From Nitrososphaerales archaeon (GTDB taxonomy: Archaea > Thermoproteota > Nitrososphaeria > Nitrososphaerales > Nitrososphaeraceae): a DNA stretch of 32,686 bases. Positions 13,464 through 28,869 of this stretch are shown here, piece after piece (the first letter of the stretch is position 1; the number at the start of each line of letters is the position of its first letter). The stretch covers positions 1 to 32,686 of the forward strand of contig JANWKP010000056.1 of NCBI GenBank assembly GCA_025451315.1, in the 5' to 3' direction. A model generated the notes under the pieces. The model was not told the origin of the DNA. It was given only the letters and a program-made list of their open reading frames with translations, and did not search any database. A program made the position numbers and the translations under genes.

Positions 13464-13790
13464 ATATACAAAATTACTATTTTTAAAAGAGATTTAAACA
13501 ATATTCCTATATCTTATATAAGAATGTTCAATTATTATATTTTATATTATTTGAGAATTAATTTTAATTTAGTTCAAGTTCTTTAATATTGTATCTATGT
13601 ATCAAATAAAAGTTAATAAATTCAATATAAAAATGATAATTAAATCAGGTAAAAAAGCTATCATAAATTTTTTACTAAAAAAAATATTAAAAAATGTTAT
13701 AAATATAACTCACGATAATTTTAATACGCAGATGTCTATTATCAAAAACAAGTGCAAACAAATCATCAAGAAATATTTGAAACAAAGAAT
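13464..13790. other. AT-rich divergent intergenic region between HprK-like and GT2 genes
   Basis: These 327 nt are over 80% A+T with several TATA-like stretches (for example near 13530-13560). They should contain the promoters of both divergent genes. A 70-codon Lys/Ile/Asn-rich plus-strand frame (13597-13809) running into the next gene looks like a by-product of base composition. I see no RNA gene. Confidence 0.45.
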
Positions 13791-14546
13791 ATGTATACTA
13801 TTTCAATAATTATTCCCACATATAACGAATCAGAAAATATTATAAGATTATTAGATAAAATTAAAGAAAATTTATCTTCTAATGTTTTTACAGAAATTAT
13901 AATAGTCGATGATAATTCTCCAGATGGTACTAGTAGAGTGGCACAAAATTACATTGATAGTGATGTTAGATCTAATAGAAAAAGCGCAAATTTTGAAGAA
14001 AAGCAATATTCTATTAAAATTATTACTAGAAAAATAAAAAATGGTTTAATTCCAGCCTTATTAGAAGGGGTCAAATCATCCCATGGTGATTATGTACTCA
14101 TTATGGATGCAGATTTTTCCCATCCACCTGAAATGATACCAAAAATAATAGAAAAATTGCTACACAATTCTAATTCAATAGTTATAGCTTCTCGGTATAC
14201 AAAGGATGGGTCCATAGTTGGATGGCCCTTTAAAAGGCGATTGATAAGTAAAGCTGCAGCTGTTATCGCGAAATTTGGCCTTAATGTACATAATGTTACA
14301 GATCCAATGTCAGGATTTTTTGCACTACCTAGAACTATCCTCCAAAACTTAAAAATTGATACGAAGGGTTATAAGATCCTGCTAGAAATACTTGTAAAAT
14401 CAAAAGATATTCCAATATTCGAGATACCGTATACTTTCAGGGATAGAAAATCAGGTAAAAGCAAAATGGGGTCTAGTGTTATTTTAGACTATATAAGTTC
14501 AGTATGGCAGTTGTATAGATATGGACGAAATCACCAAAAGAAATAA
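13791..14546 (+). CDS. Dolichol-phosphate mannosyltransferase-like GT2
   Basis: This enzyme should transfer a sugar (mannose or glucose) from a nucleotide donor to a polyprenyl phosphate, giving the lipid-linked donor used outside the membrane. It has ISIIIPTYNESENI at the start, IIVDDNSPDGT, LLEGVKSSHGDYVLIMDADFSHPPEMI (catalytic DAD), GSIVGWPFKRRLISK, DPMSGFFALPR and IPYTFRDRKSGKSKMG, the full DPM1/Ppm1 pattern. It ends soon after the catalytic domain, so it lacks the GtrA-like membrane part of some archaeal homologues and should be a peripheral membrane enzyme. ATG 13791 is the best start (251 aa). A GTG at 13752 would add 13 poorly conserved residues. A GT39-type membrane transferase follows 93 nt downstream, its likely user. 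Confidence 0.92.
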   Translation: MYTISIIIPTYNESENIIRLLDKIKENLSSNVFTEIIIVDDNSPDGTSRVAQNYIDSDVRSNRKSANFEEKQYSIKIITRKIKNGLIPALLEGVKSSHGDYVLIMDADFSHPPEMIPKIIEKLLHNSNSIVIASRYTKDGSIVGWPFKRRLISKAAAVIAKFGLNVHNVTDPMSGFFALPRTILQNLKIDTKGYKILLEILVKSKDIPIFEIPYTFRDRKSGKSKMGSSVILDYISSVWQLYRYGRNHQKK

Positions 14547-14639: not shown

Positions 14640-16172
14640 TTGAATCAAATGACTAAAACTAGGGGACTTAAGAATAAAAAAGTACTTTTAATTTTCATAC
14701 CTCTAGTTTTAAGTTCTTTTACAAGTCTCTGGAATATAACAGGTTTTCCTAGTCTACATGTGGATGAAGGTCATTATATGCGTAAAGCGATGTCTACACT
14801 AGAAGGAGAAGGTCTTCAACCACAGGATAGATATTTTGCTCCATATTTTGGACAAATATTATTGGCTGGTATCCTAGGAATGATTGGTTATCCTGATATT
14901 TTAAATCCGTCTCCAGATGCTGATTCTGTAGAATCACTTTACTTTATTCCAAGACTCATTATGGGTTTATTTGCTGTAATAGATACGTTGCTAATTTACA
15001 AAATTACAGAAAAACGATATGGGCTTAAAGTAGCACTTTTAGCATCTATTATTTTTGCAGTCATACCATATGGATGGTTATTAAGAAGAATATTTTTAGA
15101 GTCCATACAACTTCCTCTGCTATTGACTTCTATACTATTAGCTCTATATATAAAAACTAGCTCAAATCAAGAACAAAATAATAAACTAAGAATACAGAAT
15201 ATATCTTTAATTTTATTATCAGGTGGATTTCTCGGCCTAGCGATATTTACTAAGATCCCAATTTTCGTTATGATACCATTAGTTGGATATATTGTAATGA
15301 CTAATAGTGGTAACAAAAAATTCAAAAATTTTGGACTTTGGCTTTTACCAGTTATTTTAATACCTATGATATGGCCTGCTCACGCTTATTCGATCGGTGA
15401 TTTTGACACTTGGATAGAAGATGTATTACATCAAACTCAAAGAGAGAGCAAACCTTTAATCAATTCTCTAGCTACATTCCTTCAAAATGATCCTATAACA
15501 TTTTCATTGGGGATGGCAGGAATTCTTTATGCTGCAATCAGAAGAGACTTCTTTATATTGTTATTTAGTATACCGTTTCTTTTGTTTTTATATTGGTTAG
15601 ACTTTGTATCTTCATTTCATGTGGTCCCTTTATTTCCAGTATTTGCTATTGCTGCAGCAAGGTTAATTGTAGATTTATCCAATATGATACCTATCTCTAA
15701 GATCAGAAATACTATTCCATATGTCACGGTATCAGTTATCGCTATTGTTGGATTAATTTCGATTTTTTCATTAATTACAATAGATTCTAATTCTGTAATC
15801 ATTAAAACACATGCTGTATTAATCCAGCATTTACAACAAAGAAACGATACTGTGACTATGATAGGAAATCCTCTTTACACATGGATGCCTAGACATGTTT
15901 TTGATCTTTCGTATCAAGATAGGAGTTATTATTCTTCAAGACCTTTAGATACACCCTATTTCATAGTAATCGATGATGCAGGTTATAAAAAGATAATTAA
16001 AGAAAAGGGTAAGAGAGGTACTTTTCATGCAAACTTATTCAATCAAACACATCTAGTAGAAAGTGTTAAACCAGATAACCCTATACCAAAATACAAAACT
16101 AATATTTATCCATATACAAATTTGAAACAATCTCCTATATTGAAACAACTTGATATAAGAGCAAACTACTAA
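14640..16172 (+). CDS. GT39/PMT-type membrane glycosyltransferase
   Basis: A 510-aa polytopic membrane protein with about ten hydrophobic segments in the first 380 residues and a soluble C-terminal part. The first extracytoplasmic loop carries PSLHVDEGHYMRKA, with the Asp42-Glu43 pair that marks GT-C transferases of the GT39/ArnT type, which use polyprenyl-phosphate sugars. The acceptor (protein, S-layer or lipid) is not evident. It sits just after the polyprenyl-phosphate sugar synthase. GGTGAT at 14629-14634 lies 5 nt before TTG 14640, which supports this start over the ATG at 14649. Overall length is short for protein mannosyltransferases but normal for bacterial or archaeal GT39 proteins. 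Confidence 0.85.
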   Translation: MNQMTKTRGLKNKKVLLIFIPLVLSSFTSLWNITGFPSLHVDEGHYMRKAMSTLEGEGLQPQDRYFAPYFGQILLAGILGMIGYPDILNPSPDADSVESLYFIPRLIMGLFAVIDTLLIYKITEKRYGLKVALLASIIFAVIPYGWLLRRIFLESIQLPLLLTSILLALYIKTSSNQEQNNKLRIQNISLILLSGGFLGLAIFTKIPIFVMIPLVGYIVMTNSGNKKFKNFGLWLLPVILIPMIWPAHAYSIGDFDTWIEDVLHQTQRESKPLINSLATFLQNDPITFSLGMAGILYAAIRRDFFILLFSIPFLLFLYWLDFVSSFHVVPLFPVFAIAAARLIVDLSNMIPISKIRNTIPYVTVSVIAIVGLISIFSLITIDSNSVIIKTHAVLIQHLQQRNDTVTMIGNPLYTWMPRHVFDLSYQDRSYYSSRPLDTPYFIVIDDAGYKKIIKEKGKRGTFHANLFNQTHLVESVKPDNPIPKYKTNIYPYTNLKQSPILKQLDIRANY

Positions 16173-16208
16173 ACTTTCTAAAATAATAATATTTGTCCAT
16201 AATAAGTA

Positions 16209-16226
16209 ATATAAAAATAATCAAGT
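16209..16226 (+). promoter_or_regulatory. TATA-containing 18-mer shared with the GH5-like gene promoter
   Basis: ATATAAAAATAATCAAGT occurs here and again exactly at 21479-21496. At the second site the TATA part sits 26 nt before a start codon. Here it lies about 95-110 nt before the sugar dehydrogenase ATG, so it would give a long leader, or a second TATA-like ATATAAATATT a little downstream is used. The shared TCAAGT flank goes beyond a plain TATA box. Confidence 0.4.
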
Positions 16227-16320
16227 AGAGAAAATATAAATATTATTTTAACTTTAATAATAATTACTGATAGTTTGTTTATGGATTTTTTTAGTATAGG
16301 TTCAAATATGATGTATTCCA

Positions 16321-17688
16321 ATGACCTGGTATATGAATAATAATCATTACTATGCAACGATCAGTGTTATAGCAATTATTATTATAACTTGTACCGGTTT
16401 AATCTATATAGATAATATTGATAAAATTAATGCTCAATCTACAAAAAAATTAAAAAAAGAACCTTCTATACCTATACTAAGAGATGCTAATTTGAAAACA
16501 GAACTAATTATCGATGATTTGAAATTTCCTTCTGGAATGGAGTTTATAGGAAATGATGATCTCTTAGTTATAGAAAAAAATACTGGAAAGGTGAAACGAG
16601 TAACTAATGGACAAGTAGTTAGCGATCTCTTGGACTTTAATGTAGCAACAGAGAGTGAAAGAGGTTTATTGGGTATAGCTGTATTAGATATATCTAAAAC
16701 TAAACATGCTGGTAATTATGGTCCTAATGATAAATTTGTTTTTCTTTTTGTAACTGAAACCGAAAACGAAGATAATGGGAAAATTTTAGGTAATCGTGTA
16801 TACAGATTTGATTTTGTGAATGATACTCTAATAAATCCTATCATGCTCCTTGATTTACCTTATTTACCAGGTCCGTCACATAATGGAGGAGTTATGAAAA
16901 TTGGTCCAGATAATAATTTGTATATTATTATGGGTGACTTAAATAGATTAAAAGATCCAACTGGTGACACGATTGCTTCAAATCTAGAGGGAACGTCTCT
17001 TCCTGATGGTAGAGGCGGAGTTCTACGCATAACACCTGATGGCGAAACTGTCAATGATGGATTTACTTTAGGTAAGGGAGGACTTTTAGACAAATATTAT
17101 GGATATGGAGTAAGAAATAGTTTTGGTATTGGATTTGATAATGTTACAGGATTTTTATGGGATACTGAAAATGGATCGCATTATGGTGATGAAATTAATA
17201 TTATTAAACCTGGGTTTAATAGTGGATGGAGACAGGTTTTAGGATTATCCTCTATGTATAGTGATTTTTCTGATAAGGAGTTTGACAAGAGCAAATTAAT
17301 CACTTTCAATGGCAATGGCAAATATTATGATCCTATATTAACGTGGAATGAGACGATAGCACCAACAACCATTGCATTTATTCATTCCTCAACGTTAGGA
17401 CAGGAATATAAGGATGATGTGCTAGTAGGGGGTGTAAAAAATGGAACCATTTTGCATTTTGACCTAAACCAAACGAGAACAGGATTGCAATTGGAAGGAC
17501 CGTTGTCTGATAGATTGGTAAATAAACCTGATGAATTAAATACTGCAATTTTTGGAACAGGTTTTGACATAATTACAGATATCAAGGTAGATCCTATAGA
17601 TGGAGATGTTTATGTCTTGGCAGCAAATACCAAGAATGGCAAAATTTATAAAATTTTTAACGATGAAGATGCTTTAGATTCTCACTAA
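16321..17688 (+). CDS. PQQ-dependent sugar dehydrogenase family (GSDH, sorbosone/glucose DH-like), exported
   Basis: This is a six-bladed beta-propeller of the soluble aldose sugar dehydrogenase family, which oxidises sugars with pyrroloquinoline quinone outside the cytoplasm. The 455-aa product has one N-terminal hydrophobic segment (about 11-30) followed by INAQS, so it is either secreted or tethered. Family motifs visible: FPSGMEFI (69-76), ERGLLGIAVLD (113-123), PGPSHNGGVMKIGPDNNLYI (183-202; His187 is the expected catalytic base), GRGGVLRI, YGYGVRNSFGI and WDTENGSHYGDEIN. Length matches the family. Whether this organism supplies PQQ is unknown and no pqq gene is nearby. Many archaeal members have unclear substrates. 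It follows the membrane glycosyltransferase by 148 nt. Confidence 0.88.
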   Translation: MTWYMNNNHYYATISVIAIIIITCTGLIYIDNIDKINAQSTKKLKKEPSIPILRDANLKTELIIDDLKFPSGMEFIGNDDLLVIEKNTGKVKRVTNGQVVSDLLDFNVATESERGLLGIAVLDISKTKHAGNYGPNDKFVFLFVTETENEDNGKILGNRVYRFDFVNDTLINPIMLLDLPYLPGPSHNGGVMKIGPDNNLYIIMGDLNRLKDPTGDTIASNLEGTSLPDGRGGVLRITPDGETVNDGFTLGKGGLLDKYYGYGVRNSFGIGFDNVTGFLWDTENGSHYGDEINIIKPGFNSGWRQVLGLSSMYSDFSDKEFDKSKLITFNGNGKYYDPILTWNETIAPTTIAFIHSSTLGQEYKDDVLVGGVKNGTILHFDLNQTRTGLQLEGPLSDRLVNKPDELNTAIFGTGFDIITDIKVDPIDGDVYVLAANTKNGKIYKIFNDEDALDSH

Positions 17689-18022
17689 TCAGTCTACTAT
17701 TACTTTAACCATAACTTTTTATTTTATCAATTATAACTTTCAAGACGCCTCTTTAGGAATTTCACAAAAAACTGGAATGAATAAAACAATGTCGAGTATA
17801 ATTAAGTCTTAATATTATTATTACCTAATTCAACTTACAGAATTATATCAAGAGGTATTTGTTGTCCTAAAGGTAACTAATTATAGTTATTATGTTAATA
17901 TCTTTTATTAATATGAAAAAAAGGAAAACATAATTTAATGTAGATCAGAGTCGATTAAGAAGGATTTTAGATTATTGAAGTTGAAACTAATATTTAATAC
18001 AAGTATGTAACTGTTTTACTTA

Positions 18023-18244
18023 TTAGTTATCAGCTGAAGTGAGAAATTTTAAAAAGATATATTCATTTGACTCTGACCATATTTTGAAAAGATAAAAAAT
18101 ACTTGTACATGTAACTTTCAGAACCTGATATTGGAGTTTTGATAAATGTGTCGCATTCTGTATGTAAAACTTCTGATGATGCCCATACTGGGTGTACAAT
18201 TTTTGCAGAACAAAATCTTTTTCTACGTCTTTTACTTTATTATG
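18023..18244 (-). pseudogene. Open frame interrupted by the IS6-like element (tentative)
   Basis: Minus-strand reading from the IS boundary (18244) to a TAA at 18025-18023 gives 73 uninterrupted codons (NKVKDVEKDFVLQKLYTQYG near its start). If the element and one copy of its 8-bp duplication are removed, the frame continues upstream into 18983-19018 for about a dozen more codons, with a possible TTG start. An open frame of about 85 codons is unlikely by chance at this base composition. I cannot name a family, and there is no ATG. It may be a small gene killed by the insertion. Confidence 0.3.
18237..18244 (+). repeat. 8-bp target-site duplication, left copy (TTATTATG)
   Basis: TTATTATG directly precedes the left terminal repeat of the element at 18245 and is repeated exactly after its right end at 18975-18982. 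Eight bases is the duplication length expected of IS6-family transposition. Confidence 0.9.
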
Positions 18245-18974
18245 GGCTGTGTTAACTTAACGATATAGATTTAGCTGTGGAATCTCTATTTCTAATCTAG
18301 TATGCAAATTAGATTTGAAAGAAACAGAACATCCACAGTTGTAATTATGTATTCATTGTATTTGTACTTTCTTGGTTTGAGTTTAAGAAATACATCAAAG
18401 GCATTAGTAATATTTAGAGATGAGAATAAGAGAAGTTATGTTTCTGTTTGGAACTGGATTCAGAGATTTGGAGAGTATCCGATTTACAAAAGGAAAAGAA
18501 TCTCTGCTTTCATAATAGATGAAACTGTTATTCAAATTGGAAATCGTCAGTACTGGTTATGGTTTTGTATAGAACCAGTACACAGTTCTGTGCTTGGAAT
18601 TTTCCTATCAGAAGAGAGAAACATGCTTGTTGCTGAAAAATTCATTAGATCTCTTGTATTCAAATATGGAAAACATACAGTCTACACTGATGGTGGAACA
18701 TGGTATCCAGAAGCATGTAAGATACTGAGATTAAAACATTATTTACATTCACCATTAGAGATTTTGATTGAAAGGGTAATACAGTATTTAAGATAGAGTT
18801 GAATCTTTTGATGATTACTATCCATGCAATAGTAAAAGAAGAGATTGTGATAATAGTCATGTGTATAACTGGGTAGAACTATTTGTATCAATGTACAATA
18901 ATACTATAGTAGCAAAGAATAATTCTATTCAAATAATAAAGTAGGTGGTGGTATTTTCTTAAATTAACACAGCC
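18245..18974 (+). mobile_element. IS6-like insertion sequence, copy 2 (730 bp, with TSD)
   Basis: The element is bounded by GGCTGTGTTAACTTAA (18245-18260) and its imperfect inverse TTAAATTAACACAGCC (18959-18974), with a perfect 8-bp direct repeat outside. Length, end sequence (GG-C-TGTT), duplication size and a single short DDE transposase agree with the IS6 family. It is the most intact of three related copies here. Its transposase is still frameshifted close to the C-terminus. The perfect duplication shows it moved as a unit and has not since recombined. Confidence 0.92.
18302..18944 (+). pseudogene. IS6-like DDE transposase, frameshifted near the C-terminus
   Basis: The open part (18302-18796) encodes 164 aa: a helix-turn-helix region with [19 protein letters not shown] (28-46), then catalytic Asp73 (FIIDETV), Asp130 ([10 protein letters not shown]) and Glu157 (IERVIQYL). 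By comparison with the copy at 31110, two bases are missing around 18786 (QYL|K). Restoring them reads on through [15 protein letters not shown] and VYNWVELFVSMYN to a stop at 18942-18944, about 214 aa in total, a normal length. The break falls right at the Lys/Arg seven residues after the catalytic Glu. The truncated product keeps the DDE triad but loses the last 50 residues, so activity is doubtful. Confidence 0.85.
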
Positions 18975-18982
18975 TTATTATG
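18975..18982 (+). repeat. 8-bp target-site duplication, right copy (TTATTATG)
   Basis: Exact partner of the repeat at 18237-18244, directly abutting the right terminal repeat of the IS6-like element. Confidence 0.9.
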
Positions 18983-19026
18983 CAGGTATCTAGGCAATTG
19001 AATTTTCAACTGGTTAGATTAATCTT

Positions 19027-19191
19027 CTACCTGTTATCATAATGTTCTTCATTATGTAGCCCATGAGATCGGATGAATCTTAATAATTCTGTAGAATCAT
19101 CAATATTATAATATTTTTTCATTTTTTCCAAGGTTTCATCATCATAAATCCTTGGTTTTTGGATTCTTTTTTCTTTCTCACTTTCTCTCAT
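19027..19191 (-). CDS. Small acidic/basic hypothetical protein, 54 aa
   Basis: An ATG-started 54-codon frame of strongly charged, helix-prone sequence: MRESEKEKRIQKPRIYDDETLEKMKKYY, then NIDDSTELLRFIRSH. It has no membrane segment or cysteine. The amphipathic pattern is like small DNA- or protein-binding peptides, but I recognise no family. The stop lies 45 nt from the insertion-site duplication of the IS6-like element. The coherent composition and good start make a real gene more likely than not. Confidence 0.5.
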   Translation of the reverse strand: MRESEKEKRIQKPRIYDDETLEKMKKYYNIDDSTELLRFIRSHGLHNEEHYDNR

Positions 19192-19420
19192 ACTATTTTT
19201 TTACATTTATAATACTTAAGTTTTTATTGATTCTCTATTACAATGGAGTGCTCTTACAAATTTTTTGAAAAGAGAGTATTATTAAAAAACTATTATTATC
19301 TGAATAAAACACTATTTTTGAATAGATAGTATAGTCTGACAACGGCTCAATATTTGTAATATTAATTGTGAAAAATTTTTGAAGAAATTTATTTTGTTTA
19401 TAGACAACATCATGTATTTT

Positions 19421-21361
19421 TCATGATTTAAATTTTCGGTTGTCGTTATTTATTTCTCTGGTTTTTCTCTTTTTTCTTATAAACAAGAAAATACCAATAG
19501 ATATTAAAATTAAAATAGATAATATTATTATAGTAATTAAAACTGGAGTGGTCGTTAATTCAAATTCTAGTCTATAAGATATTTGATCATTTTTCAAATT
19601 AAATTCTATAGTATTGTTATTATTGCCCAGAGTTATCAGATCTTTTATCTCTTTATTTACCTTCACCAATACCTGACTTCCTGGGTAAAATCCTCCTACT
19701 GTAAACTTTGTCACAATTCCTAATTCAGGATACACTAAATCGATCCTTTTGTACTCCTTATTTTTTTCTAAATCATAGTTAACTTTTGTGATGTTTATGT
19801 AGGATGTTTCCGGGTTCACATACATATCGGTAGTTTTTAATTTAGTAAAATTATTATTAGGATTAAGTATTATTGTATTATTTTGTTTATAGACTGTATT
19901 AGTAATATTATTTCCTTCAATAATTCTATTCATTGTATCAGTTATTACCATGTTGCTTTTTTTATCATTCAGCAAGATTCCAGTATAATTAAAAAAAGAA
20001 TTTATTATAATGTTATCTTTGGACTGTCTTATAAAGAAATCATCATTTTGATTATTTTCTATTATATTATTTTTTAATATGTTTTTAGATGTTTTATCAA
20101 ATTTTAAGCCATAGTTAGCTCCTTCGACAATATTGTTATTTATCAGTTTATTATTATTAGTTCCATAATCTGCAATATTTATTCCACTATTCATAGACTT
20201 TTTTATATTATTGCCTTGAATTATATTATTAGTAGAATTATTATATATGTTTATCCCATAGTTATTGCTGTTTGTTATATTGTTTGAATTAATTAGATTG
20301 TTCTTTGTATTCTTTATAAAAATGCCATTACCATTTCCTACTAAGTTATTCGTTATTATAGTATTTTCTGGCGATTCCGAAACCATTATTCCCATTGTGT
20401 TGGATCTTATATTATTTGATTCAACATAATTAATGCTCGAATTTCTTTCTAATAGAACTCCAATACCAATATTATTTTCTAAAATGTTATTCTTTATTTT
20501 TATATTATTACAATTTTTTTTACAAACTATTGCATGAAAATTATTTTCGAAAATTCGATTTTGTTGTATATCAATATTGTTTGTATTTGAGTCCAAATTG
20601 ATACCATCAAATTGGCTTTTCGAAATATTGTTATTCTTAATAGTGATATTAGAAACTTTATTTGCAAAATGTAATCCAAAATAATTATTAATTATTGTGT
20701 TGTTTTGAATTAAACTACCGTCACCAGAAAAAAATGCTAGTCCAGTTGTGCCTAAATGACTTTTATAACCAAGATTTTCAAAAAATGAATTTGTAATATT
20801 AGTTTTTCCTGCCGAGTTCCAAAATGTCCATATATAAGCTCGAGGAATTTCAGGAGATAATTCGGGAACCTCATTACTAGTTGAATTCCATGATGTTATA
20901 TTTGTATTATCTATAATTAAATTGCCCCTTGAAATTATAGAATACGCCAAATTATTGGGCGAGTCAGAATCTATTTTAAGTAGGCGAGTATTCAGACCAC
21001 TAATATTCAATGTTCCTTTTTCAAGTATCAAAATGTTGGACTTCAAGATCCATTCTTTTTCTTCTTTCATTTCTAGAATATCAGAATTATTATCAATAAA
21101 ATCATAAATAGTTGGAATATCTACCGCCCCATTACATACTATGATAGTTTTTGTAATGTTTTCATATCTCAAACAAATATCTTCATTATTTATACGATTA
21201 TTACTTTTTATGATATTATTATTTTCAGATTCCGAATTATTGGTTAATTGACTGTGAATATCACTCGCAAATGAAATATCTATTATATTAGCTAAAATGA
21301 AAATTAATAAAGAAGGAAATACAACGATTCTAAAAATTATAATATTTCTAATGCTAAACAC
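19421..21361 (-). CDS. NosD-type parallel beta-helix surface protein, membrane-anchored
   Basis: A 646-aa extracytoplasmic protein. A hydrophobic N-terminal signal segment (about 5-28) is followed by an Asn/Ile-rich right-handed beta-helix of repeated NN-I-NN coils (about 200-480, in the style of NosD and pectate-lyase-like repeats). A beta-sandwich-like region follows, then a C-terminal transmembrane helix (TTPVLITIIILSILILISIG, near 608-630) with a basic RKKRKTRE stop-transfer tail. The topology is therefore outside the cell with a C-terminal anchor. Such helices bind or cut polysaccharide, or act as surface structures; no catalytic residues can be assigned. The start is GTG at 21361, with TATATAAAT about 30 nt upstream (21390-21398), giving a near-leaderless mRNA. 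It is divergent from the GH5-like gene. Confidence 0.85.
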   Translation of the reverse strand: MFSIRNIIIFRIVVFPSLLIFILANIIDISFASDIHSQLTNNSESENNNIIKSNNRINNEDICLRYENITKTIIVCNGAVDIPTIYDFIDNNSDILEMKEEKEWILKSNILILEKGTLNISGLNTRLLKIDSDSPNNLAYSIISRGNLIIDNTNITSWNSTSNEVPELSPEIPRAYIWTFWNSAGKTNITNSFFENLGYKSHLGTTGLAFFSGDGSLIQNNTIINNYFGLHFANKVSNITIKNNNISKSQFDGINLDSNTNNIDIQQNRIFENNFHAIVCKKNCNNIKIKNNILENNIGIGVLLERNSSINYVESNNIRSNTMGIMVSESPENTIITNNLVGNGNGIFIKNTKNNLINSNNITNSNNYGINIYNNSTNNIIQGNNIKKSMNSGINIADYGTNNNKLINNNIVEGANYGLKFDKTSKNILKNNIIENNQNDDFFIRQSKDNIIINSFFNYTGILLNDKKSNMVITDTMNRIIEGNNITNTVYKQNNTIILNPNNNFTKLKTTDMYVNPETSYINITKVNYDLEKNKEYKRIDLVYPELGIVTKFTVGGFYPGSQVLVKVNKEIKDLITLGNNNNTIEFNLKNDQISYRLEFELTTTPVLITIIILSILILISIGIFLFIRKKRKTREINNDNRKFKS

Positions 21362-21475
21362 TTGCGTTACTAAATTAAATTAATATGCTATATAAATGAC
21401 GACAAAATTATTAATGCAGTTATTACTTATTTTTTTTAAATAACATACTTCTACTCAGACCTGGAGAGACACACA

Positions 21476-21487
21476 TTTATATAAAAA
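21476..21487 (+). promoter_or_regulatory. TATA box of the GH5-like gene (leaderless mRNA)
   Basis: TTTATATAAAAA is centred about 27 nt before the ATG at 21508, the distance at which archaeal transcription starts. The mRNA should begin at or within a few bases of the start codon. The element overlaps the 18-mer also found at 16209. Confidence 0.6.
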
Positions 21488-21507
21488 TAATCAAGTTATA
21501 TTGATTT

Positions 21508-22797
21508 ATGAAATCACAGCTTGTAACTAAAAATACTATTGTCGAATGTCTTGTCATATTCTTCTTCACTTTGCTAGTCTACAATATTGTTTTTTATCCT
21601 TTACCTTTAGACCAAATATATGGTGGCACCACTAATGTAAACACGGATAACGGTCCACCGTATAACGGTGTTAATATGCATGGATTTTATACTAGAACAT
21701 CCCAAGCTAGAGATACAAATTATGATCTTCCAAATAATTATTTTGAAGAGAGCTTTAAGATCCTTTCATCTAATGGTTTAAATCACGTTAGATTCTTGAT
21801 TTTCTGGGAATCATTTGTTAAAAATCCTACAGAGTTCATTGATGAATTGAAGTCAGTTGCAAATGCTGCTGATAAATATAATATTAAAGTTTTATATGAT
21901 AACCACCAGTTTCATACATCATCTTACCTAAATCCTCAACGAGGTACTGGTTTCCCCTTTTCATTATTTGAAGCAGATTTTGCCTTCTTCTATGGAAGTG
22001 GTGGTGGTACGAAATATCCTACCGCTAAAGTATGGTGGACAAATTGGTGGGATAGAAATGTTCGTGACAAAGATGCAAATGATGGTTGGACCTTACAAAC
22101 AGAATTCTTCAAAAAAGTTCTAGAAACGGTTGATAACCATACAAGTACTGTAGGCTATGAAATTTTAAGTGAACCACAAGTCCATGATAAGAGCCAATGG
22201 GAAAAAATTGGAAAATATAATACATTTATGGCAGATTTTCTGAGAAAATATACAGATAAAACTATTGCGTATAGTATGAACATTCCAGTATCTTTACAAA
22301 GCCCTATTGAATTAAATCCAATTAACCTAGCAAAAATGGCACCAAAGAATGTGTCTAACTCGGTATTTAAAATAAGCGTCTATGGGGTTCCACAAGAAAA
22401 TGAGTATCAAGAATCGAGATTGAGTAATTTTGTTCAAGCTGCTGAACTGGCAAATGTTCCACTATACGTTGGAGAATGGAATAATGTTCAGAGAGATAAG
22501 ATTATTGATGAAGAAGGAGAAATTGTCACATTTATTAATGAAACATTTAGTAGTATTAATCAGAGTGAAGCCAACCGATTAGTCGAAGTGTTTAAGAATC
22601 TTGATGTATGGGGATCTGCATTTTGGCAATGGCGAGTAGATTCTCATCAAGTACAAAACTTTAACCTGATTAATGTAACAAATGGAAAGATAGAAACTAC
22701 GCCTTATTTTGATATAGTAAAAACTGCCTATCAGACAATTTATGTCAATAATAGCCGAAATGTCTCTCTTAATACTAATAATAATTCTCTAGTATAA
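21508..22797 (+). CDS. GH5-like glycoside hydrolase (cellulase/endoglycosidase fold), exported
   Basis: A 429-aa protein with an N-terminal hydrophobic segment (about 11-32) that exports or tethers it, then a TIM-barrel of clan GH-A type. Visible are GVNMHGF (54-60), LNHVRFLIFWESF (91-103; Arg95), VLYDNHQ (128-134; His133), YEILSEPQVH (217-226) with presumed acid/base Glu222, LYVGEWNN (319-326) with presumed nucleophile Glu323, and AFWQWRVDSH near the end. The residue before Glu222 is Ser where GH5 enzymes usually have Asn (NEP). The substrate may be cellulose, mannan, glycolipid or the cell's own polysaccharide; nothing decides. It is divergent from the NosD-type gene and about 2.3 kb from a polysaccharide synthase gene. 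Confidence 0.85.
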   Translation: MKSQLVTKNTIVECLVIFFFTLLVYNIVFYPLPLDQIYGGTTNVNTDNGPPYNGVNMHGFYTRTSQARDTNYDLPNNYFEESFKILSSNGLNHVRFLIFWESFVKNPTEFIDELKSVANAADKYNIKVLYDNHQFHTSSYLNPQRGTGFPFSLFEADFAFFYGSGGGTKYPTAKVWWTNWWDRNVRDKDANDGWTLQTEFFKKVLETVDNHTSTVGYEILSEPQVHDKSQWEKIGKYNTFMADFLRKYTDKTIAYSMNIPVSLQSPIELNPINLAKMAPKNVSNSVFKISVYGVPQENEYQESRLSNFVQAAELANVPLYVGEWNNVQRDKIIDEEGEIVTFINETFSSINQSEANRLVEVFKNLDVWGSAFWQWRVDSHQVQNFNLINVTNGKIETTPYFDIVKTAYQTIYVNNSRNVSLNTNNNSLV

Positions 22798-22907
22798 TAG
22801 GAAGATCAAATGGAATCGGAACCGAATAATGGTGATAAGGATTACTATTCAATAAATTTCCTATGGGGTTTGGAAAGATAAATTTGAAAAGTTATGATAA
22901 GTAATTA

Positions 22908-24827
22908 TTAAGCCATTATCTGTGGTCTTTTTGAAAGATACTTCGGCAAATTTAGTGGCATAAATGGCTTATCTTTTGTTTCATTTTTTACAGATTCTAT
23001 TAGTTCTATTAAATTGGATTCAATCTGTTTTCCGGTTTTACGATCACGTATTACCAAAGTTGTAGATTCAACTTCTTTATCTCCAATAACCAATATATAA
23101 GGAATCCATTCTGTTTCTGCTTCCCTTATTCTTTTACCAAGAGATTCCTGTCTATCATCTATATCTGTTCTTATTTGACTGCGGGAAAGAATATTCTCCA
23201 TATTTTCTGCAAATCCTAAATGTTCATTTCTAATAGGTATAATTCTAACCTGTGTATGTGATAACCAAATAGGAAATTGAGGCGTTTGGCCTTGTTGTTT
23301 TATTTTAGCAGCTTTTTCTAACAGTGTATAAATAATTCTTTCTATAGCTCCACTCGGTGAATTATGTAATATTATAGGATTGTTTCTTTTTCCTTGTTCA
23401 TCTATATATTCAATATTGTATCTTTTTCCATTTTCTACATCGATCTGGTCAGTTGATAATGCTGCGGCTTTTCCTACATTATCAACATAATTAAATTCCC
23501 ATTTTAAAATAAAATAAAAAAATCTATCCTTCCACATTTCAACTAATATTGGTTTTCCAAATTTTCTAGAAATCTGGGCAACAAACTCTTTATTTTCATT
23601 ATAAAATATTTCAGTAAATCTTATTGCCATTTCTATATCTTCAATTTTTATATCAAACCCGTTTAATACATCTATAGAGAGATCAAAACGTTTTAAACAT
23701 TCATCTTTTGCTTGTTCTATATCTTTACAAAATGCATGACAGTCAGGCATACTGAATGCTCTTAATCTTCTAAGTCCTACTAGTTCTCCACTTTTTTCTC
23801 TACGGAAACTATATCTTGTTAACTCATAAAGTTTTAATGGAAGATTTTTATATGTAATATGAAAATCTTTAGCCATTAAAAATTGACCAAAACAGGCTGC
23901 AAACCGTAAAAATAATTGTTTGTTATCTGATAATATATTATATTGTCTAGCAGGAAATCGATTGAAATAGCTTTCCATAGATGGATGTTTTGTATCATAC
24001 ATTATGGGAGTTTCAACTTCTATTCCCCCATATTCAAGAACCTTCCAAGTTACAAACTGTTCTATTAATGATTTCATCAATCTTCCCTTTGGATAGAATC
24101 TCATATTACCTGCATCAGAAGCTGGTTCATAATCTGCAATAGCCATTTTCTTCATTAGGCCTACATGAGGAGGTTGTTCATCTGCAGCTCTTCTTTTTGA
24201 TGTTTCGTATTCTAAAAACCTCTTCAAATTATTATTTGTTTCCATTTTGAATTTTTCTAATGGTGTTAATACTCCATTTGTATCTAAAATGAACCAGAGA
24301 GATTGTTGCTTTTCCTCTGATTTTAAAGCAGATGAAACCGGACCTGTATCAATAATATGTTGTTTTAGATCCTCTTTCTGAAAAATCTCGTCGTTATCTT
24401 CACTTGTAACTTGTTTATCAGAAATCACTTTAAAATTTTCTGCTAATGGGTGACCTTTTACTTTTATATTAAAGCTCTTAGTCCATCCAAATGGAGCTCT
24501 ATAAACCTCATTTATTATCTTTCTTGAGTTTATTTCCAATTCTTTGATAATTTCAAACGCATATTTTGGAGGAGCCAAATAAGAACTTAAGTGGGAATAA
24601 GGATAAATCAATAATTTATTAATTTTTAAATTTTGTAAGTAACTTCTAATCTCTTTTATTGCTTTTTCTACAGTAATTTTATTATCTCCTTTCTCTACCG
24701 ACACAAAAACAACTATTAAACTTTCTAATTTGATTTTCGATTTTGATACGTCTTTTTCTGCATCATCAAGTTCCACTTCAATAGGCTCATATTCTATGAA
24801 GTCTGCGTGCAATTGTAATAAACGCAT
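22908..24827 (-). CDS. thrS: Threonyl-tRNA synthetase, archaeal type
   Basis: It charges tRNA-Thr. In the 639-aa product the first 145 residues are the archaeal editing domain related to D-aminoacyl-tRNA deacylase (YPYSHLSSYLAPP at 75-87, APFGWTKSFNIKVKGHPLAE at 111-130), which removes mischarged serine. The class II core follows: FYPKGRLMKSLIEQF, motif 2 FRREKSGELVGLRRLRAF, and motif 3 GAIERIIY. Zinc ligands are the Cys in AACFGQF, the His in PDCHAFC and the His in ILHNSP. A HGAP-type anticodon-binding domain closes the protein. Length is normal for archaeal ThrRS. A small zinc-ribbon-like gene starts upstream on the same strand (25 nt gap), probably one transcript. Confidence 0.97.
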   Translation of the reverse strand: MRLLQLHADFIEYEPIEVELDDAEKDVSKSKIKLESLIVVFVSVEKGDNKITVEKAIKEIRSYLQNLKINKLLIYPYSHLSSYLAPPKYAFEIIKELEINSRKIINEVYRAPFGWTKSFNIKVKGHPLAENFKVISDKQVTSEDNDEIFQKEDLKQHIIDTGPVSSALKSEEKQQSLWFILDTNGVLTPLEKFKMETNNNLKRFLEYETSKRRAADEQPPHVGLMKKMAIADYEPASDAGNMRFYPKGRLMKSLIEQFVTWKVLEYGGIEVETPIMYDTKHPSMESYFNRFPARQYNILSDNKQLFLRFAACFGQFLMAKDFHITYKNLPLKLYELTRYSFRREKSGELVGLRRLRAFSMPDCHAFCKDIEQAKDECLKRFDLSIDVLNGFDIKIEDIEMAIRFTEIFYNENKEFVAQISRKFGKPILVEMWKDRFFYFILKWEFNYVDNVGKAAALSTDQIDVENGKRYNIEYIDEQGKRNNPIILHNSPSGAIERIIYTLLEKAAKIKQQGQTPQFPIWLSHTQVRIIPIRNEHLGFAENMENILSRSQIRTDIDDRQESLGKRIREAETEWIPYILVIGDKEVESTTLVIRDRKTGKQIESNLIELIESVKNETKDKPFMPLNLPKYLSKRPQIMA

Positions 24828-25119: not shown

Positions 25120-26577
25120 TCATCGTATTATAAAAATTACTATAAAAACTAGTGATACTATTATTTCACTTGTAAGTATAAAATTCTTTATCTTTTTAAA
25201 TGAGGAATTATCTGTTTTCCTATTTTTTGATCTAATCCACTTTTGATCTCTGATTGTTACTAAGGCGTATAATTTTATTATTGCAATCATAAAATTGATT
25301 ACAACGTAGACTGGAAGAAGTATAATATCTGCAGGATGCCTTTTTAGATGTGGTATTATTTTAATTCCTCGACCGATCATCCATAAAAGTAAAATGGATA
25401 CCGCTAATACATAGTGGTTTAAATAAAGTGAAATACCAAAGAAGATTGGACCAAAAAACAATGTAAATATGGAAATAAATCTATCTATTATGTGAAAAGC
25501 TAAAAATGGATGTTTCCATGCCCATCCATCCCACAAACTTATTAAATCAGAATTATGACTATTTCTTGACCACCTTAATCGCTGACTCCAAAAAGTCTTA
25601 AAGTCAGGAGCAGCATATGAGTAGATTACAGCATTGCTCTGATAGTATGTTTTCCAACCTTTACTTTGAACTATTCTTGTTAAACATTTATCCTCTCCTG
25701 ATTCTTTCTTTTTTCCTAAGACTATTTCATTAAGAAAATTATCCAAATAGTCAATTATAATGTCTTTTCTATAGAGTGAAGTTCTACCTGACAGGCACGA
25801 AAGAGCTTGTCCCATAGCAGTCTGAGCAGGTAGATCATAATAATTTCTCATATCCCAAAAAATATCTGTTATTTTTTGCCATATTGTATTTCTTTCAATA
25901 GGATGTTGCCTTGTTGTAACACCTCCTATAAGTTGATCGTCGAAAGGGGATAGTATGGATTCCCTAATATTTTCTGCCCAAACTGTGTCACTATCAACAA
26001 GAGCAACAATTTCATTTTTTGCCTCTTTTATTCCTTCAGCCAATGCAGGTCTTTTGCCAGGCTTCCTTGCGATGAGAAGCTTCATAAATGAATAATCTTT
26101 TGCCAAAGATTTGAAAACTTCAATACAACGACTATCACTTTCGTCGATCACTCCTATTATCTCATTAGGCTCATTTTTGATCCATGATCTTATTGCATGA
26201 TCAAAAAGTTCCGGATCTTCATTATAAACTGGGGTAATTATGGTGTATTTGCGATAGCTTCTATCATTCCAAGATACTTTAGGTCTGTATAAAAACGAAG
26301 TGGATTTTTTAAAAACCCATACACTCCATCTCCAAACTCCGATAATTCCAAGTGGTATGTAAATCCATATTAGTTGATAGTAATTAATAGCGACATAGCC
26401 AAAAAATTCGGATAGCTTTAAAACTAGAGATTGAATTGGTTCTAATAGTGATATTTTACTAAAAAAATGAGGAGAAAAAATGTAAACTACAGAAAAAATA
26501 AGAAGTACAGATAAGACTGATATAATTAAAGCAACCGTAACTTCCTCTGACGCTCTTGAATCCAGTAATCTATACAT
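25120..26577 (-). CDS. Processive GT2 polysaccharide synthase (hyaluronan/cellulose synthase-like)
   Basis: A 485-aa membrane glycosyltransferase that should polymerise a sugar from a nucleotide donor and export the chain. Two N-terminal membrane segments (about 14-35 and 65-85) precede the GT-A domain: TIITPVYNED (112-121), Asp145 in VIDESD, DSD (195-197), LSGRTSLYR (262-270, as in class I hyaluronan synthases), GED (294-296) and QRLRW (332-336). Three or four membrane helices follow (about 360-440), with a last one at the very C-terminus. TATATA at 26607-26616 lies about 35 nt before the ATG. It is divergent from the nucleotide-sugar dehydrogenase, whose product class (UDP-uronic acid) is a substrate of such synthases. 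The polymer made is unknown. Confidence 0.88.
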   Translation of the reverse strand: MYRLLDSRASEEVTVALIISVLSVLLIFSVVYIFSPHFFSKISLLEPIQSLVLKLSEFFGYVAINYYQLIWIYIPLGIIGVWRWSVWVFKKSTSFLYRPKVSWNDRSYRKYTIITPVYNEDPELFDHAIRSWIKNEPNEIIGVIDESDSRCIEVFKSLAKDYSFMKLLIARKPGKRPALAEGIKEAKNEIVALVDSDTVWAENIRESILSPFDDQLIGGVTTRQHPIERNTIWQKITDIFWDMRNYYDLPAQTAMGQALSCLSGRTSLYRKDIIIDYLDNFLNEIVLGKKKESGEDKCLTRIVQSKGWKTYYQSNAVIYSYAAPDFKTFWSQRLRWSRNSHNSDLISLWDGWAWKHPFLAFHIIDRFISIFTLFFGPIFFGISLYLNHYVLAVSILLLWMIGRGIKIIPHLKRHPADIILLPVYVVINFMIAIIKLYALVTIRDQKWIRSKNRKTDNSSFKKIKNFILTSEIIVSLVFIVIFIIR

Positions 26578-26820
26578 CTATTTATTTTTATATTTGTGAC
26601 TTCTAATTTATATATAGATCGTAAAAATTTTGATTAAGAAACTCAGTAAACAAAAATAGAAACTGGTGGTTACACTATAATTTTATATTTAAAATTCATA
26701 TTAATATTTTATAGAAGAATATTTAAAATAATCAATCCTAACTATATAAGTGAAAAAGAGATAGTAGTACTTATATATTAATTTGCGTTTTTTTTTGTAA
26801 AAGAGGATTGTGGAACAGTA
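26578..26820. promoter_or_regulatory. Divergent promoter region, polysaccharide synthase / sugar dehydrogenase
   Basis: These 243 nt separate the two divergent starts. A TATA-like ATTTATATATAG (26607-26618) serves the minus-strand synthase, and TTATATATTA (26771-26780) lies about 45 nt before the plus-strand ATG. The rest is AT-rich with no clear operator. The shared region suggests the two genes could be controlled together. Confidence 0.5.
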
Positions 26821-27693
26821 ATGGTAAAAATTTCTATAATTGGATCCGGAGTAGTTGGCTCTGCCACGGGAAAAGGATTTCATAAGCTAGGTCACAACGT
26901 TTTCTTCTATGATATTTCTAAAAATAGAATAGAAACGTTAAAGAAAGAAGGATTTAAGATCGCTCATAATGTAAAGGATGCTTTGCAGCAGAGTGATATT
27001 ACGTTTGTATGTGTCAATACGCCTACTGGCGATAATGATGAACAAGATTTGTCACAGGTAAAATCTGCTCTCTTCTCTATAAAAGAAGCATTAAATGAAT
27101 CTACTAAATATAACTTGATAGTTTTTAGAAGTACTATGTTACCAGGGACTATGAATGAAATAGTTATTGGTTATCTGGATCAAGAGTGTAAACAAACTAG
27201 AGGTAAAGATTATGATGTTTGTTATAACCCAGAATTTTTAAGACAAGAAAGTGCATATGAGGATTTTTTTATTCCTGATAGGGTAATTATAGGAGAGGAT
27301 TTTGAAGGCAGTTCGAAATTATTACAAGAATTGTACAAACCACTTACGGAAAAAATTATTGTTACTAGTCCTAAGGCTGCAGAGATGATTAAGTACACAT
27401 CCAATTGCTTCTTGTCATTAAAAATATCATTCTTTAATGAAATCGGAATGTTGTGTAAAGAAATAGGTATAGATGATAGAGCAGTAAGTTTAGGTGTATC
27501 TCTAGATAAACGTATAGGTAAATATGGTACTATCGCAGGTAGACCATTTGAAGGTGCATGTTTGCCAAAAGATACAAGAGCATTATCTACATTTATCAAA
27601 AAAAGAGGATGGACACCAGACTTGCTTAAAGTAACTTTAGATATAAACAAAAAAATTGAAGAATTAGTAACAAAAACTGCATTAACAAAATAA
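26821..27693 (+). CDS. Short UDP-glucose/GDP-mannose 6-dehydrogenase (lacks C-terminal domain)
   Basis: It should oxidise C6 of a nucleotide sugar twice with NAD+ to a uronic acid donor. In the 290-aa product: dinucleotide fold GSGVVG (8-13), VCVNTPTG (63-70), FRSTMLPGT (102-110), YNPEFLRQESA with Glu138, AAEMIKYTSNCFLSLKISFFNE with Lys191 and Asn195, and RPFEGACLPKDTRAL with catalytic Cys247 and Asp251. All catalytic residues are present, but the protein ends about 40 residues after Cys247, whereas usual enzymes run to about 390-440 aa with a third, UDP-binding domain. There is no frameshift continuation in the 93 nt downstream. Either it is a natural short form or it needs a partner. It is divergent from the polysaccharide synthase. 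Confidence 0.88.
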   Translation: MVKISIIGSGVVGSATGKGFHKLGHNVFFYDISKNRIETLKKEGFKIAHNVKDALQQSDITFVCVNTPTGDNDEQDLSQVKSALFSIKEALNESTKYNLIVFRSTMLPGTMNEIVIGYLDQECKQTRGKDYDVCYNPEFLRQESAYEDFFIPDRVIIGEDFEGSSKLLQELYKPLTEKIIVTSPKAAEMIKYTSNCFLSLKISFFNEIGMLCKEIGIDDRAVSLGVSLDKRIGKYGTIAGRPFEGACLPKDTRALSTFIKKRGWTPDLLKVTLDINKKIEELVTKTALTK

Positions 27694-27786: not shown

Positions 27787-28869
27787 TTATTTATTATAAA
27801 TATTACAATAATAGTCAAAAAATTTCTCTAATGAAATTAATTGTCTGTTCTCAATAGATATATATAATGAAGCAAAAACATTAGAAAAGAATAATCTCTC
27901 TTGTGGTGGTAATTCAATAAGATGTCCTATAATGTCGGCAGCATCCCAAGAATCCCCTGCACCGGTTAAATTTCTTAAAATAGTATTTTTTATGTTATAT
28001 TCAAAATATACCTCATCGCCATAAGAACAAGCACAACCATATCTGGTATGCAGGTCGATAAATACTCCTAATTGTTTTGCTAATTCTTTAATAGCCATTT
28101 CTATATTGATACGGTCATATTTTTTACTTAAGTAAAAATTTTTGAGATCTAATTCAAAAAGTAAAGAATTACATTCATTTTCATTAATACTTAGAATATC
28201 TATCATATTATTTGGATCTCTTAATAATGTACAAAATTCCTTACTCCGAGTTTGAATATCTGCAGGATCAACAAAATGTAAGGCTTTCGGTGAATTTTTA
28301 AATACATGTTTTAAAAGATCAGTACCTTTCCAATTGCTAGCCCAATTTACAAGAATAACAGCATCAGAATTAACTAATATTTCTTTATAATCCGGAGAAT
28401 TTAGTCTGTCTGAACCAAAATTTGAATTTTCACCTACATCGCTAATCATTATATTAGAATTACTTAGGTCAATGCAGTTCTGAATTTCTAGTGATGTTGT
28501 GTATCCTGGTTTTCCATTCGATAAATGCAATTTTACTTTAGGTAAATCTTTAAAAAAATATTTTAAGTTCATGTCACTTGAATCATCAGTTATAGTGAAT
28601 AGATCTACATCAAATCCAAGTTTTCCAAGACAATAAGCAATATTTACTGCATTTCCTCCTTCAATTTGTGTAGTGGGTATTCCTCTGATGCTTCCACCCC
28701 CATACTTTGTTTTTTCTTTTATACATATAAAAAATTCATCTATATTTTTAATTTTGATTATTCTGTCGATAAAAAAATCATGTAATACCGTAATTGATTT
28801 ATTATTACATTGGGCATCATTTATTTTATCAAAAATTGTAATTGGGTCCAAAACCGTTATGGGAAACAC
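27787..28869 (-). CDS. PfkB/ribokinase-family sugar kinase, 360 aa
   Basis: It should phosphorylate a sugar or nucleoside with ATP. Visible are the substrate-binding YGGGSIRG (56-63), GGNAVNIAYCLGKLGFDVDL (71-90), the family's NENE-like INENE (228-232), and the anion-hole/base motif TGAGDSWDA (302-310; catalytic Asp306, with Trp where Phe is common). The N-terminal about 50 residues before GGGS carry an extra DPITIFDKIND segment. Length is slightly above the family's 300-330 aa. The start is GTG at 28869, with ATG absent nearby. A 47-aa membrane protein gene lies 39 nt upstream on the same strand, probably cotranscribed. The substrate cannot be told; a sugar-activation role next to the glycan genes is a guess. 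Confidence 0.85.
   Translation of the reverse strand: MFPITVLDPITIFDKINDAQCNNKSITVLHDFFIDRIIKIKNIDEFFICIKEKTKYGGGSIRGIPTTQIEGGNAVNIAYCLGKLGFDVDLFTITDDSSDMNLKYFFKDLPKVKLHLSNGKPGYTTSLEIQNCIDLSNSNIMISDVGENSNFGSDRLNSPDYKEILVNSDAVILVNWASNWKGTDLLKHVFKNSPKALHFVDPADIQTRSKEFCTLLRDPNNMIDILSINENECNSLLFELDLKNFYLSKKYDRINIEMAIKELAKQLGVFIDLHTRYGCACSYGDEVYFEYNIKNTILRNLTGAGDSWDAADIIGHLIELPPQERLFFSNVFASLYISIENRQLISLEKFFDYYCNIYNK

Follow-up and report, generated by a model that had tools for sequence, protein, structure and literature searches.

A divergently encoded membrane GT2 and short nucleotide-sugar-dehydrogenase-like enzyme in Nitrososphaeraceae

Gene content and conservation of the locus

We analysed a stretch of 32,686 nucleotides (the window), which corresponds to contig 56 in a Nitrososphaeraceae assembly of 4.0 Mb. 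An earlier note on this DNA had described a hyaluronan-synthase-like GT2 gene diverging from a nucleotide-sugar dehydrogenase gene, and both open reading frames were confirmed on opposite strands with a gap of 243 nt between them. The features discussed below are the following.

13752..14546, + strand: dolichol-phosphate-mannose-synthase-like (DPM-like) GT2 beside the PMT-like gene, looser association (PF00535, 112.7 bits)
14640..16172, + strand: PMT/ArnT-like membrane glycosyltransferase (PMT_2; synteny family F5, PF13231)
19421..21361, − strand: right-handed beta-helix protein, AlgG-related, with a C-terminal transmembrane segment and without DPHD (PF13229; PDB AlgG, E 1e-12)
21508..22797, + strand: GH5-like protein with an N-terminal hydrophobic segment and SEP and GEW motifs (synteny family F2, 13 loci)
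25120..26577, − strand: membrane GT2, putative polysaccharide synthase, 485 aa (PF13641, PDB and fold matches, tree)
26578..26820: intergenic region between the divergent genes; two blocks are conserved, ATATTAATNTTTTATAGAA and AAGAGATAGTAGTACTTATATAT (six aligned genomes from the genus)
26821..27693, + strand: short two-domain nucleotide-sugar-dehydrogenase-like enzyme, 290 aa (PF03721 and PF00984, without PF03720)

The conserved blocks between the two genes are probably their promoters. Both blocks are strongly conserved and the rest of 26578-26820 drifts; one of them contains ACTTATATAT, about 50 nt ahead of the dehydrogenase start.

To evaluate the conservation of the pair we surveyed 70 Nitrososphaeraceae genomes. 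A close relative of the GT2 was found in 19 of them (genera g1, g9 and g10), all of which also carry the dehydrogenase, and the remaining 51 have neither gene (Fisher p 2e-17, a value that ignores the kinship of the genomes). The two genes diverge on a single contig in 18 of the 19 genomes, with 235-324 nt between them, and are split over two contig ends in the other one. The genomes with the pair belong to the TH1177/TH5894/RBC_AOA1, WS9 and TA-21 groups of soil archaea. The earlier note had allowed for a pairing peculiar to this genome; the pair was present throughout these 19 genomes and recurs in other phyla. Second copies of the dehydrogenase occur in the TA-21 group and stand alone. In seven genomes of this group (L071 to L077) the cluster dehydrogenase has ACG at the start position, where the second copies have ATG (L080 and L081) or CTG (L082). 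As the ACG is kept over all seven genomes and the frame is open and conserved, a non-AUG start is possible.

TA-21 genomes carry, after the dehydrogenase gene and in the same orientation, genes for the GH5-like protein, the PMT/ArnT-like protein and a threonyl-tRNA synthetase. In the genus of the window the genes of this cluster are dispersed over 14640-24827, together with the gene for the AlgG-related beta-helix. The SEP and GEW motifs of the GH5-like protein are conserved and its match to the Cel5A profile was weak (E 0.004). The beta-helix protein reached 40 bits against the AlgG model, for which the cut-off is 700, and a motif alignment places NLDS at the site where a Chloroflexota protein (L173) has DPHD, the catalytic motif of AlgG (PMC4444821). 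Proteins of this kind are common in the family (45 of the 70 genomes) and we therefore did not count the gene as strong evidence for alginate. The DPM-like GT2 is a neighbour within the same genus only. The position of a PfkB kinase at 27787 is likewise conserved only inside the genus, and this gene was left out of the module. A 164-aa open reading frame at 18302-18796 resembles, by eye only, the remnant of a DDE transposase.

The short dehydrogenase and the clade to which it belongs

The window enzyme matched PF03721 with 132 bits and PF00984 with 89 bits, and PF03720 was absent in the Pfam comparison. Against TIGR03026 it scored 251 bits, above the cut-off of 190. Thus the N-terminal NAD-binding domain and the central domain of a nucleotide-sugar dehydrogenase are present, the two domains it has in common with UDP-glucose 6-dehydrogenase (UGDH; PF03721, PF00984 and PF03720; AglM, PDB 3vtf and 3gg2). 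Its predicted structure (pLDDT 94) matched the first two domains of UGDH with a TM of 0.9, and the NAD site and the catalytic Cys, Lys, Asn and Asp are shared. However, the short form has no PF03720 domain, its N-domain insert is shortened, Tyr10 is lost and the loop ahead of the catalytic Cys is remodelled. The C-terminal domain, together with its invariant Lys320, is absent in the whole short clade as well.

Two simple origins of the missing domain were rejected. All above-cut-off matches to PF03720 in ten genomes lie in long frames (443-503 aa) and none of them is a stand-alone gene, which rules out a separately encoded C-terminal domain among these matches. A truncation, frameshift or pseudogene was rejected because the short form is kept in the 19 family genomes and in other phyla. 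The genome of the window also encodes two full-length dehydrogenases.

For the individual residues we used the numbering and roles from a comparison of 229 enzymes, which lists 18 invariant residues (PMC4794789). The enzyme had been credited in the earlier note with all catalytic residues. This holds for Cys260, Lys204, Asn208, Asp264, Thr118 and Glu141, which correspond to C247, K191, N195, D251, T105 and E138 of the window enzyme, but Tyr10 is Val (V11), Glu145 is Gln, Gly257 is Glu and the domain with Lys320 is gone. Of the 18 invariant residues 16 are retained, the exceptions being Gly257, which contacts UMP, and Lys320, which contacts the diphosphate (PMC4794789). Tyr10 is 98% conserved and is held responsible for hydrolysing the thioester at the end of the reaction (PMC4794789), a role for which Rocha et al. 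2011 is also cited elsewhere.

Tyr10 is replaced by Val, Ile, Met or Thr in 19/19 short forms and kept in 31/34 full-length enzymes. The loop G/A-[FY]-G-G-S-C of the full-length enzymes mostly reads P-[FY]-x-G-x-C in the short forms: five positions before the catalytic Cys, 16 of 18 short forms have Pro, where all 35 full-length enzymes have Gly or Ala. Each of the 19 short forms has Ala, Met, Glu, Lys or Arg in place of Ser259, and Gly257 is altered in 11/19. The catalytic Cys, Lys and Asn were found in 19/19 short forms and the catalytic Asp in 18/19. Asp29 of the NAD site is retained in all 12 short forms that were checked, and the RIG motif equivalent to Arg244 is retained in the Nitrososphaeraceae enzymes.

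The dehydrogenase is short in every Nitrososphaeraceae member. When 84,980 named species genomes were scanned, only two of the other best relatives were short, both of them Chloroflexota records (L105 and L112); the remainder had the full length of about 400-540 aa. Further short forms came from samples of 398 Thermoproteota and 400 Chloroflexota genomes. A tree built from the shared domains of 12 short and 27 full-length enzymes places the short forms on one side of a branch supported at 100/98. They still form one group (92/98) in a tree of 19 short and 35 full-length sequences in which the diagnostic columns were masked. By these sequence comparisons, the missing C-terminal domain, the lost Tyr10 and the altered loop are marks of one Thermoproteota/Chloroflexota clade. 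We found no description of a short dehydrogenase or of a hyaluronan-like system in these archaea among open-licence papers. What is new here is a subfamily of two-domain dehydrogenases that is conserved and tied to GT2 synthases.

The GT2 synthase and its association with the short dehydrogenase

The window GT2 matched PF13641 (89.9 bits) and also PF00535. The motifs DSD, GED and QRLRW and the LSGRTSLYR segment given in the earlier note were found again, the last within CLSGRTSLYR. The enzyme thus carries the signature D, DSD, G(E/D)D and QxxRW with membrane helices that is known from class I hyaluronan synthase (HAS). There is one hydrophobic segment at the N-terminus and several at the C-terminus, and in the structural model, which is of moderate confidence (pLDDT 64), helices flank the glycosyltransferase domain on both sides. 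Class I hyaluronan synthases, such as the chlorovirus enzyme (PDB 7sp6-7spa), are the closest solved relatives both by sequence profile and by the fold of this model, and they, too, work together with a sugar dehydrogenase. The best NCBIfam match was the chitooligosaccharide synthase NodC (TIGR04242), which has a similar GT2 architecture; the score of 107.4 bits is, however, far below the cut-off of 550.

The tree separates the window GT2 from both families. It falls in a clade characterised by CL[SP]GRT, together with sequences from Chloroflexota, other Thermoproteota, Streptomyces and Curtobacterium (96/94), whereas HAS, NodC and a Lactococcus sequence form a separate group (95/96), in which the chlorovirus HAS is represented by a fragment. 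Forcing the Nitrososphaeraceae GT2s together with HAS/NodC was rejected by the AU test (p 5e-14). We conclude from the sequences that the GT2 is HAS/NodC-like in fold and motifs and belongs to its own clade beside HAS/NodC. The label hyaluronan-synthase-like therefore fits the fold and motifs and does not extend to membership of the HAS clade; the partner dehydrogenase, being short, also differs from the hyaluronan system. A place in a non-processive GT2 clade, which the earlier note had considered as the adverse outcome, was not observed: the QxxRW of the processive type is present and the clade lies beside HAS/NodC.

Outside Nitrososphaeraceae a short dehydrogenase adjoins a GT2-family gene in Chloroflexota (L112 and L173, and L105 with a DPM-like GT2 that overlaps it) and in several Thermoproteota families (L176, L177, L180, L246, L247, L248, L251, L252 and L253), and the two genes often overlap. 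The gene order in L112, L173, L176, L177, L180, L246-L248 and L251 is unlike that in Nitrososphaeraceae. A GT2-family reading frame lies at most 350 nt away in 13 of 17 short dehydrogenase loci, with the window as the single stand-in for its 19 relatives, compared to only 3 of 52 full-length loci, which are a non-random sample of the best tblastn matches (Fisher p 3e-8). The four short loci without a near GT2 are two stand-alone second copies of the TA-21 group, L249 and L250. As all short loci outside the family came from searches with the dehydrogenase only, the association is not an artefact of searching with the GT2. In L249 (5726-6622) and L250 (5722-6618) a divergent short dehydrogenase lies beside a 773-aa gene that resembles the large subunit of xanthine dehydrogenase, and the short enzyme probably has another function there.

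The partner GT2s are of different types: those of L180 and L251 belong to another clade, that of L248 is more NodC-like and those of L252 and L253 are of a distant PF13632 type. Such a mixture is more easily reconciled with a step that supplies the donor than with a dedicated subunit. In L248 the GT2 and the short dehydrogenase are followed by a gene resembling GalU (UTP-glucose-1-phosphate uridylyltransferase; TIGR01099, 200 bits, under the cut-off of 327), which points to UDP-glucose as the substrate. Related GT2s also occur with full-length enzymes. On the Curtobacterium plasmid pTCL (L213, 7917-12488) a GT2, a glycosyl hydrolase and a full-length UGDH form a tight operon with overlapping ends, a bacterial counterpart of the archaeal cluster, and on a Lactococcus plasmid a related GT2 is paired with a full-length UGDH.

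The alginate system (AlgD, Alg8, AlgG) offers a further comparison, as it likewise combines within a region a dehydrogenase, a GT2, an AlgG-related beta-helix and a glycan-cutting enzyme. After the pair, L173 encodes a tandem AlgG-like protein that carries GIDPHD motifs (212 bits against the AlgG model), and L174 has a beta-helix gene beside a related GT2. However, the beta-helix of the window is under the AlgG cut-off and lacks DPHD, and the window GT2 had no match to a putative Rhizobium Alg8 at E 1e-3. In two genomes (L246 and L247) the short dehydrogenase, the GT2, a CapK-like protein and a large membrane protein are encoded in a row; the CapK-like call was made by eye and had no Pfam match.

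Proposed function and alternative explanations

We hold with modest confidence, from the gene sequences, that the pair most likely lies at the centre of a module for an extracellular polysaccharide of the synthase-dependent kind, in which the dehydrogenase oxidises C6 of the sugar donor. The GT2 would be an inner-membrane polymerase, and probably translocase, of the hyaluronan/chitooligosaccharide-synthase type, and the short dehydrogenase an NAD-dependent C6 oxidase of UDP-glucose dehydrogenase descent. The GT2 would receive the oxidised donor from the dehydrogenase, most likely UDP-uronic acid made from UDP-glucose, and with this donor the polymer would probably be acidic. The GH5-like protein, the PMT/ArnT-like protein and, in some lineages, the AlgG-related beta-helix may act as accessories that trim, decorate or remodel the polymer extracellularly. 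The data show the anatomy of the genes, the domain loss, the conservation, the clade structure and the GT2 association across phyla; substrate and donor, product, processivity and export are what we infer here. The polysaccharide system proposed in the earlier note is borne out as far as a polymer-synthase-like GT2 is coupled to a dehydrogenase in a polysaccharide-type neighbourhood, while the departures from a standard UDP-sugar enzyme make the substrate and product of the dehydrogenase tentative.

Uronate would be the expected product, though the missing parts also allow a 6-aldehyde or a nucleotide-free substrate. The absence of the Lys320 domain, the loss of Tyr10 and the changed loop make a normal production of UDP-uronate doubtful, whereas the invariant catalytic Cys favours the full two-step oxidation. 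The two full-length dehydrogenases in the genome could serve as an alternative source of uronate, which counts against our main reading, as do the stand-alone second copies in the TA-21 group and the moderate confidence of the GT2 model. The puzzle is the loss of both the nucleotide-binding domain and Tyr10: either the loop of the central domain suffices, or the carrier is a different one, or the reaction stops early.

With a different carrier, the short dehydrogenase would oxidise not a free nucleotide sugar but a sugar phosphate, a sugar on polyprenyl phosphate or one in the growing chain, and the GT2 and the PMT/DPM-like enzymes would use or display the oxidised product. We consider this unlikely. 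It would agree with the clade having lost the C-terminal domain and residues that contact the nucleotide (Gly257 in 11 of 19), with the PMT/ArnT-like gene in the cluster and with the overlapping DPM-like GT2 in L105, but a GalU-like gene is part of one operon (L248), the loop region of the central domain that contacts the nucleotide is largely retained and so is the RIG motif in Nitrososphaeraceae. If the reaction stopped early, the enzyme would use a UDP-sugar and halt at or release the C6 aldehyde, the residue for thioester hydrolysis being gone, and the polymer would contain cross-linkable dialdose residues. The consistent loss of Tyr10 in the short forms, set against its retention in most full-length enzymes, is in line with this outcome; we nevertheless rate it as quite unlikely, since the catalytic Cys needed for the second oxidation is invariant, so that this step should still occur, and we found no precedent.

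We give little credence to a pseudo-enzyme, or to a hydroxyacid dehydrogenase that has nothing to do with sugars, with a divergent pairing that reflects shared regulation only. Such a protein would account for the domain loss, the two-domain architecture of the 6PGDH type and the short forms beside a xanthine-dehydrogenase-like gene (L249 and L250), yet the catalytic residues are strongly constrained and the GT2 association is repeated in separate phyla and in different gene orders. It is highly improbable that the GT2 was acquired by gene transfer as a genuine synthase of hyaluronan or chitin oligosaccharides. The best PDB and NCBIfam matches would suggest it, but membership was rejected on the NodC score and the AU test, the GT2 has a well-supported clade of its own and CLSGRT replaces the CCxG/CVGG segment. 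A broader idea, which appears rather unlikely to us, is that UGDH gave rise to a distinct class of sugar oxidases without the nucleotide-binding domain and the hydrolysis Tyr, which works with membrane GT2s and oxidises a synthase-held, lipid-linked or in-chain sugar, giving polymers with aldehyde or unusual C6-oxidised residues in archaea and Chloroflexota.

Exopolysaccharide production is assumed for soil ammonia-oxidising archaea, but the papers that we found name only general sets of glycosyltransferases for it (PMC10064710, PMC11559005). For a TA-21 genome GT2, GT83 and GH5 enzymes were listed and production of exopolysaccharides was suggested (PMC10064710). In the TA-21 and TH1177/TH5894 groups the pair provides a concrete and testable candidate for making a polymer that is oxidised or of the uronate type. 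The results suggest a slightly new route, through a synthase and a reduced dehydrogenase, by which some soil archaea and some unrelated archaea and bacteria would give their surface an acidic or otherwise oxidised coat of sugar. The subfamily is also open to misannotation, as automatic calls would read UDP-glucose dehydrogenase despite the missing domain and a residue thought to be necessary, and the short enzymes make the need for both directly testable.

We also observed a different arrangement in genus g7 (L025, L026 and L027). A GT2 from the HAS/NodC side is followed directly by a long protein, the C-terminal half of which is an AlgG-like beta-helix with YGLDPHT, and the two could possibly represent a second uronan-type system in Nitrososphaeraceae.
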